Source: an uncultured Burkholderiales bacterium (GTDB lineage: Bacteria; Pseudomonadota; Gammaproteobacteria; Burkholderiales; Burkholderiaceae_C). From it: DNA of 64,000 bases. The translations under genes and the position numbers were made by a program. Below the pieces are notes generated by a model that was not told the DNA's origin, made no database searches, and saw only the letters and a list, made by a program, of their open reading frames with translations. Shown in pieces: positions 30,995-33,876 of the stretch; the first letter of the stretch is position 1; every line of letters begins with the position of its first letter. The stretch spans positions 62,001 through 126,000 of the forward strand of contig CAIWAO010000067.1 of the NCBI GenBank assembly GCA_903910745.1. The letters are read 5' to 3'.

Positions 30995-31014
30995 AAACAG
31001 TAGTAAAATCAAAA

Positions 31015-31108
31015 CTCCCAAGGAGCGTTGCATCAAATCATTATTTGGCAGGCTTGGGACGTATCTCTAAGAATAACGACGCTCACCTGTGTCATATTTT
31101 CAGGTGAG
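31015..31108 (+). promoter_or_regulatory. SAH (S-adenosylhomocysteine) riboswitch-like aptamer with translational expression platform
   Basis: CTCCCAAGGAGCGTTGCATCAAATCATTATTTGGCAGGCTTGGGA...AATAACGACGCTCACCTG; helices CCCAAG/CTTGGG, CAAAT/ATTTG, GAGCGT/ACGCTC; followed by hairpin CTCACCTG...CAGGTGAG covering the SD. Confidence 0.85.
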
Positions 31109-31113
31109 TGTTC

Positions 31114-33876
31114 ATGAATACATCAAATAATTCCCAAAAATCAGCTAAGCCTGACAACACAAAAAAGGCAACTGTTTTACCCTTAAGGCTAGCAGGGCTG
31201 GAGCCTGTCACTCTTGATCAAAGCTCTTTATTTTTAAATATTGGGGAGCGTACAAACGTAACTGGCTCCAAAGCATTTGCTCGCATGATTCTCAACGAGG
31301 AGTACGAACAGGCTTTGCAGGTTGCTCGCCAACAAGTAGAGAACGGCGCTCAAATTATTGACATCAACATGGATGAGGCCATGTTGGATAGTCAAGCGGC
31401 TATGGTTAAATTCTTAAATTTATTAGCCTCAGAACCCGATATCGCACGAGTTCCTATCATGGTGGATAGTTCTAAATGGACTGTAATCGAAGCTGGACTC
31501 CAGTGTTTACAAGGAAAGGGAATAGTTAATTCCATAAGCATGAAGGAAGGTGAAGATGAGTTTTTGCGACAAGCTAAACTTATAAGGCGTTACGGCGCGG
31601 CTACTGTTGTAATGGCATTTGATGAAAAAGGACAAGCAGACACGTACGAGCGAAAAATTGAAATTTGCAAGCGTGCTTATGATCTTTTGGTTGAGAAGGT
31701 AAATTTCCCACCTGAGGATATCATTTTTGATCCTAATATTTTCGCTGTTGCAACTGGGATAGAAGAGCATAACAACTATGCAGTTGACTTTATCAATGCA
31801 ACACGGTGGATTAAAGAAAATTTGCCAGGTGCAAAAGTCTCAGGAGGGGTATCAAATGTAAGTTTCTCTTTTCGTGGAAACGATCCAGTTCGTGAGGCAA
31901 TACATACCGTTTTTCTGTACCACGCAATTAAGGCTGGAATGGATATGGGAATTGTTAACGCTGGAATGGTTGGTGTTTATGATGACCTAGAGCCGGTGCT
32001 TAAAGAACGCGTTGAGGATGTGGTTTTGAACCGAAGAGATGACGCTGCAGAAAGACTCATTGAAGTTGCAGAGCAAGCAAAAGGTTCTGCAAAAGATGTT
32101 ACTGAAAAAAATAGCTGGCGCGGTAGTCTAGACTCACCAGTGAGCGTTACGCAAAGACTTTCTCACGCCCTCGTGCATGGAATTACTGAATTCATAACAG
32201 TGGACACAGAGGAGGCTTACCAAGAGATCTTAGCGCGCGGGGGAAGGCCTTTAGAAGTGATTGAGGGGCCTTTAATGGAGGGTATGAATACAGTAGGCGA
32301 TTTATTTGGCCAGGGCAAGATGTTTTTACCTCAAGTGGTTAAGTCTGCCCGCGTCATGAAACAGGCTGTTGCGCATTTGATTCCTTATATTGAGGAAGAA
32401 AAATTAAGACAAAAAGAAGCTGGTGAAGAGGTTAAAACCAAAGGGAAAATAGTGATTGCAACTGTAAAAGGTGACGTTCACGATATTGGCAAAAACATAG
32501 TCACTGTTGTTTTGCAGTGTAATAACTTTGATGTGGTTAACATGGGTGTTATGGTGCCCTGTCACGAAATACTTGCAAAGGCAAAAGTCCAGGGTGCAGA
32601 TATTATTGGTTTATCCGGACTAATCACTCCAAGCCTTGAGGAGATGCAATATGTAGCTAGCGAGATGCAAAAAGATGAGTATTTTAGGATGCGTAAAATA
32701 CCCTTGCTTATTGGTGGCGCGACAACAAGTCGCGTACATACAGCAGTAAAAATTGCACCTCACTACGAGGGACCGGTTGTGTATGTGCCAGATGCTTCAA
32801 GGAGTGTTGGGGTTGCCCAGGGTTTGTTGTCCACCAAAGCAAGTGCATTCATTGCTGAATTAAATGCGGACTATGATCGTGTAAGAGATCAGCATGCAAA
32901 TAAAAAGCAAACCCCTCTTTTGACCCTTGAAAAAGCGAGAGCAAATTCTGCAAAAATAGATTGGAAGGATTACCTAGTAAAGCCCCCCAAATATATTGGA
33001 CGAAGGGTATTTAAAAACTTTAATCTCGCAGAGTTAGAACAGTATATTGATTGGGGTCCATTTTTCCAGACTTGGGATTTGGCTGGTCCCTACCCGGCTA
33101 TTCTTAAAGACGAGATCGTAGGTCCTGAAGCCGTTCGCCTAATGAGCGACGCTAGAAGAATGTTAACGCGCTTGATTGATGGAAGATGGCTGAGCGCACA
33201 AGCAGTTGTAGGTCTCTATCCAGCAAATAGCATTGGAGATGATATTGTTTTGTGGCGAGATGAATCTCGCAGTGAAAGGCTTTTAACCTGGACGGGACTT
33301 AGGCAACAAACCTTAAAACCAGAGGGTCGTCCAAACAGATGCCTATCTGATTTCGTTGGTCAAGAGGGTGTTCTTGATTATGTTGGTATGTTCTCCGTAA
33401 CGGCAGGCATTGGTGTTGAGTCTAGAGAAAAATTCTTTATGGATGATCATGACGATTACAGTGCCATTATGTTCAAGGCCTTAGCTGACCGATTAGCAGA
33501 GGCAATGGCCGAATGCATGCACGCCAGAGTTAGGGTGGATCTTTGGGGGTACAGTGAGAAAGAGCAATTAATTCCTCAAGACTTAATCGCTGAAAAGTAC
33601 GTTGGAATTAGACCTGCGCCCGGCTATCCTGCTTGTCCCGACCACAGTGTAAAAAAACAGATGTTTGAAGTCCTTCAGTGTGAGGATATAGGTATGAGCT
33701 TGACGGAGAGTCTTGCCATGTATCCAGCAGCAAGCGTGTGCGGCTTTTACATCGCACACCCGCAAGCCAAGTACTTCAACGTTGGAAGAATCGGGTCAGA
33801 TCAAGTCAGCGACTTAGCGAAAAGACAAGGCATACAGGAGGCGGACCTTAAACGAATGCTAGCCCCTAATCTTTGA
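31114..33876 (+). CDS. metH: Cobalamin-dependent methionine synthase, folate/B12/activation half (split MetH, part 2); start assigned at ATG 31114
   Basis: [59 protein letters not shown]. Confidence 0.97.

Follow-up and report, generated by a model that had tools for sequence, protein, structure and literature searches.

A predicted SAH-responsive translational switch in the leader of metH2, between the halves of a split methionine synthase gene

Introduction

Why should a regulatory RNA lie between the two halves of one enzyme, and which half does it control? The question is raised by a locus of an uncultured Burkholderiales bacterium, analysed here within a stretch of 64,000 nucleotides (the window), where cobalamin-dependent methionine synthase is specified by two genes, metH1 and metH2, and the gap between them carries an element resembling an SAH riboswitch. 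The ahcY-type SAH riboswitch (RF01057) upregulates ahcY, with a value of 32 nM for SAH and roughly 1000-fold weaker recognition of SAM (PMC7057144). The SAM/SAH riboswitch (RF01727) has metK as its target, binds SAM and SAH alike, and is an OFF switch (PMC7367207). Leyn et al. 2014 (PMC4239095) give MetH as a taxon-specific target of SAH riboswitches in the Comamonadaceae.

Results

The split metH locus

The features of the locus are collected in Table 1. The only domain found in MetH1 is the homocysteine methyltransferase domain, and MetH2 has one domain for pterin binding, two for B12 binding and the activation domain, its aligned span corresponding to residues 355-1259 of full-length MetH (9ssp). 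An earlier sequence-only reading of the window gave the gap between the genes as 113 nt, which holds only if the in-frame GTG at 31108 is the start of metH2; measured to the ATG at 31114 it is 119 nt. The GTG was rejected as the start because it lies inside the SD helix described below and most relatives keep an ATG a few bases beyond that helix. The split itself was considered as a possible assembly artefact and this was also rejected, since split halves recur in the genus, in other Comamonadaceae, and in Burkholderia, Cupriavidus and Caballeronia. The metH loci of Oxalobacteraceae, Methylophilaceae and Polynucleobacter have a single fused frame; one further locus (L135) was scored as 'fused', and looks like a coincidental open frame.

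Table 1. Features of the metH1-metH2 locus (positions are those of the window).
Feature	Position	Strand	Evidence
metH1, homocysteine S-methyltransferase half of cobalamin-dependent methionine synthase, 348 aa	29948..30994	+	PF02574, 327 bits; ORF
SAH riboswitch aptamer (RF01057)	31014..31091	+	cmscan, 48.2 bits
P1 5' strand, CCCAAG (partner 31053-31058)	31017..31022	+	sequence; 99.2% of cells paired in 43 relatives
P4 pseudoknot 5' strand, GAGCGT	31023..31028	+	sequence, RF01057; 100% of cells paired, nearly invariant
P2 5' strand, CAAAT (partner 31043-31047)	31034..31038	+	sequence; 96.4% of cells paired (first four pairs, 43 relatives)
P2 3' strand, ATTTG	31043..31047	+	sequence, alignment of relatives
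P1 3' strand, CTTGGG	31053..31058	+	sequence, alignment of relatives
anti-SD strand, GACGCTCACCTG, 12 nt	31078..31089	+	folds with 31101-31112; compensatory changes in relatives
P4 pseudoknot 3' strand, ACGCTC, also base of SD-masking helix	31079..31084	+	RF01057, folding, alignment
SD strand, CAGGTGAGTGTT; SD proper AGGTGA at 31102-31107	31101..31112	+	folding; kept as CAGGTGAGCCCATG in L188
metH2, folate-, cobalamin- and activation-domain half, 920 aa	31114..33876	+	PF00809, PF02607, PF02310, PF02965

Two side observations concern methionine synthase genes elsewhere in the data. The metH1 matches of three genomes were interrupted, either as two overlapping pieces or by one in-frame TAA (G082:C146:10144-11171, G093:C11:13264-14295 and G029:C81:456-1472), and could represent sequencing errors, a stop at the end of the match, or real decay. 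The genome from which the window derives also has a 370-aa open frame (L161, G000:C19:22882-23889) that matches PF01717, the MetE C-terminal domain, and is possibly a short B12-independent methionine synthase-like protein.

The aptamer

The covariance-model search proposed in the earlier reading returned RF01057, matched end to end at 48.2 bits against a gathering score of 37 (E=8.1e-6 for 64 kb and the whole Rfam library), and no other Rfam family matched the 64-kb window; a SAM/SAH or SAM riboswitch was discarded on the same grounds. All strands of P1, P2 and P4 were present where they had been proposed, and the Rfam model places these helices likewise. By covariance model the element thus belongs to the SAH riboswitch family, and the ATG of metH2 follows shortly 3' of the aptamer on the same strand.

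Conservation was assessed in an alignment of 43 metH2-type leaders, from which nine leaders were excluded where the SD helix was missing or not near an ATG. Across the aptamer pairs, 98.8% of cells were paired, seven of the 16 pairs had changed on both sides (three of them in P1, with P2 also covarying), and the pairing peaked sharply in the true register when set against all slid registers. Chance resemblance without a functional RNA, for which nothing speaks beyond the shortness of the element, is refuted by this covariation, by the E-value over 64 kb and by genus-wide conservation upstream of metH2, and is given practically no weight.

We take G31030, C31031, A31050 and C31077 to be the equivalents of G15, C16, A29 and C46 in the numbering of 3NPQ; all four are present in the window, and their columns are invariant in the metH2-type leader alignment. 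In 3NPQ these are conserved nucleotides of the SAH riboswitch ligand pocket (PMC7057144).

The window scores towards the low end of the genus with RF01057, position 31033 is a U in the clade of the window where other leaders have A or G, and the nearest relative (G081; L192, G081:C34:48939-49035) has a C in place of an otherwise conserved G beside P4 (31078 in the window) and scores 40.7, so that its aptamer is possibly altered or failing. Such features could mean that the leader is decaying in this clade, or has acquired a different ligand specificity, and no longer senses SAH normally. This is very unlikely, given that the presumed SAH-contact nucleotides are in place in the window, both matches exceed the cut-off, and P1, P2, P4 and the SD helix all remain recognisable.

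The SD-masking helix

Downstream of the aptamer core, the sequence-only reading had paired 31082-31089 with 31101-31108, and this pairing was recovered, but as part of a longer helix of 12 rather than 8 bp (31078-31089 with 31101-31112). The overlap with the aptamer is likewise larger than the CTC originally described and takes in the complete P4 3' strand (six bases). The hairpin has a predicted stability of -18.2 kcal/mol, which was equalled by none of 200 shuffled sequences (z=-6.0). When P4 forms, five pairs of the helix are left (ACCUG/CAGGU, -4.2 kcal/mol), and the modelled duplex of the SD with the 3' tail of 16S rRNA reaches -8.4 kcal/mol. The probability of the SD being unpaired rose from about 0.0003 in the free RNA to about 0.11-0.13 once the P4 strands were barred from pairing, a figure in which the pseudoknot is represented solely by keeping its strands unpaired and its own energy does not enter. 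Since the SD helix contains the whole P4 3' strand, the ligand-bound and SD-masked folds should compete strongly, although not to the absolute mutual exclusion first envisaged because the five remaining pairs may persist and keep the SD partly covered when ligand is bound. The modelling thus supports fold competition and an ON direction.

The SD helix was paired in 96.6% of cells and was the best of all slid registers in the alignment; apart from the changes given next it hardly varies, which is expected of sequence that also has to serve P4 and the SD. Compensatory changes were seen in two pairs, three cells having both sides altered; with a mostly invariant helix, and an alignment built from leaders in which it had already been found, the covariation comes from few events. 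Variants altered on both strands include CTCACCAG/CTGGTGAG in L058 and CTCACCCG/CGGGTGAG in L118, and further ones (ACCG/CGGT, ACCC/GGGT and CCTT/AAGG) occur in leaders outside the alignment or its register. As nine leaders had been left out, the unbiased figure is the count over all 52 metH2-type leaders: a helix of at least 8 bp joining the region of the P4 3' strand to the 48 nt that follow was found in 43 of them (1.9% with shuffled downstream sequence), and one of at least 7 bp in 49 (7.3% with shuffles). The three leaders in which no helix of at least 7 bp was found within the searched span were L099, L102 and L126.

Might the riboswitch act instead on transcription or mRNA stability, through a terminator or through access of Rho or RNase, rather than on translation initiation? 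There is a precedent in another ahcY leader of the Burkholderiales (L014), in which the P4 3' strand enters a terminator-like hairpin with a 14-bp stem followed by TGTGTTTTTC, a T-rich tail, and Rho-dependent effects would be invisible in sequence. The window has a weak terminator-like match with a 5-bp stem at 31078-31093, but this is far weaker than the 12-bp hairpin, and chance alone would yield about 1.7 matches of this kind over the region scanned. The stable hairpin itself is not followed by a U-run, 31101-31112 being succeeded by CATGAATAC, and was therefore rejected as an intrinsic terminator; its 3' arm consists of the SD, which in most relatives is close to the ATG. Taken together, these features make control at the level of transcription or stability unlikely.

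Distribution in the genus and beyond

The genome of the window has two SAH elements, one in the metH2 leader and one 5' of ahcY, and in a first search at least one SAH element was found in 55 of 61 genomes. A model built from metH2 leaders separated the two types across 84 genomes of the genus, metH2-type elements scoring at least 65 bits and ahcY-type elements at most 58 bits, and detected the metH2-type in 59 of the 84. Wherever the element and metH2 were on one contig (52 genomes), metH2 was downstream on the same strand in every case. The position of metH1 was far more variable: it lay at most 120 nt upstream of the element in 22 genomes; in 31 it shared contig and strand with the element at a distance of 343-11965 nt, and in six it was on a different contig. 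Location between adjacent halves is therefore one of several arrangements and, since the element stays with metH2 where metH1 is far away, it appears to control metH2 rather than metH1.

Four genomes with adjacent halves (G015, G017, G020 and G035) had no element between them; the genes nearly abut, and in G017 the stop of metH1 overlaps the start of metH2. In G015 (L188, G015:C6:8400-9400) the aptamer and the anti-SD strand are absent and the SD (CAGGTGAG, CAGGTGAGCCCATG) and ATG are kept, which looks like a natural deletion that would leave the metH2 SD unmasked.

Among 80 metH2 loci from GTDB, 37 had a plus-strand match to the model at E <=0.001, mostly in Comamonadaceae and neighbouring genera (e.g., Ramlibacter, Variovorax, Rhodoferax and Roseateles); none was found in the loci of Burkholderia, Cupriavidus and Caballeronia, which have split halves. 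The relatives of its metH2 place the window with the Comamonadaceae. The metH2-leader element is a shared trait of these bacteria, and mostly an ordinary one given its published link to metH. A counterexample to a strict metH2 rule is Comamonadaceae bacterium OS-4 (L084:1-110), which has no element before metH2 and carries one upstream of metH1, with a GCTCACT/AGTGAGC hairpin of its own.

The ahcY leaders of the genus (L001 and others) have GCTCACC...GGTGAGC directly after the aptamer, their ATG often being 66-174 nt past it, and several contain a further complementary pair, CCACTGAC/GTCAGTGG; to judge from these motifs, their expression platform differs from that of metH2. At L014/L080 (G046:C93:83462-83683, minus strand) there are two tandem SAH riboswitches upstream of ahcY, the first using its P4 3' strand in the 14-bp terminator-like hairpin with T-rich tail and the second lying immediately 5' of the ahcY start, an arrangement that suggests combined transcriptional and translational control.

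Discussion

The element between metH1 and metH2 is, with high confidence, a member of the SAH riboswitch class that would act as a translational ON switch for metH2. Family membership, anatomy, the conservation of both folds and the target gene are computational observations. We infer ligand binding, the direction of switching, co-transcription with metH1 and the physiological effect, and the following scheme is proposed. Without SAH, the 12-bp hairpin would form, the SD region (AGGTGA) being paired with the P4 3' strand and five bases that follow it, and metH2 would be poorly translated (OFF). Accumulating SAH would stabilise P1, P2 and P4 of the aptamer, so that P4 captures the lower part of the anti-SD strand, about five weak SD pairs are left, and ribosomes can load (ON). 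Because the aptamer is transcribed ahead of the SD, a co-transcriptional decision would be favoured. More MetH2 should then give greater methionine synthase capacity, drawing homocysteine, and hence SAH via AhcY, through the cycle, and in the same genome AhcY would be under an SAH riboswitch of its own.

The ON direction put forward in the sequence-only reading is thus borne out as a prediction, being implied by a conserved SD-masking hairpin that competes with P4. That reading had also restricted control to the folate/B12 half, which agrees with the anatomy and with the tracking of metH2 but does not extend to OS-4, where the element precedes metH1. Its proposal that SAH uncouples the two halves was overstated: both are needed for MetH activity, and raising a limiting subunit would also raise the holoenzyme, so the dose of metH2 may simply set the holoenzyme level. 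A tentative idea, which we regard as possible but not the expected outcome, is that a riboswitch within the operon sets the subunit ratio, SAH raising MetH2 while MetH1 stays constant, so that the SAH load of the cell would adjust a single subunit of methionine synthase. It would fit the finding that the element mostly accompanies metH2, not metH1, across the genus, and also the close contact, perhaps with translational coupling, of the two genes in genomes that lack it.

The closest known system is the ahcY-type RF01057 riboswitch, with which the metH2 element shares the aptamer architecture, the conserved core, a target in the SAM cycle and the use of the P4 3' strand as the pivot of the expression platform. 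It differs in its target, in its location in the metH1-metH2 gap and in having an SD-masking hairpin directly before the ATG, whereas the ATG of same-genus ahcY leaders is roughly 66-174 nt past the aptamer. RF01727 is likewise small, contains a pseudoknot and acts on translation within the SAM cycle, but has another fold, targets metK, turns expression OFF and had no match in the window. The MetH regulation of Leyn et al. 2014 concerns the same RNA class, enzyme and bacterial group, although the accessible part of that account specifies neither which metH half is preceded nor an SD platform (PMC4239095). In the literature on SAH riboswitches associated with metH2, or in tandem, nothing specific was found beyond that study. 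Since upregulation of ahcY by SAH is established and MetH in Comamonadaceae has been published as a target (PMC4239095), the metH2 element is not a new kind of riboswitch. What is new here, as predicted from sequence, is the detailed and conserved SD platform, the tracking of metH2 independently of metH1, and the cases in which the element is naturally missing or has moved.

These results provide a clear and testable platform by which SAH could control methionine synthase at the level of translation, and leave knowledge of the riboswitch class unchanged. They also define natural contrasts within one genus, where the element may lie between adjacent halves, accompany metH2 with metH1 at a distance, or be absent from abutting genes, and such contrasts could reveal whether one half of a split enzyme is regulated separately from the other in bacteria.
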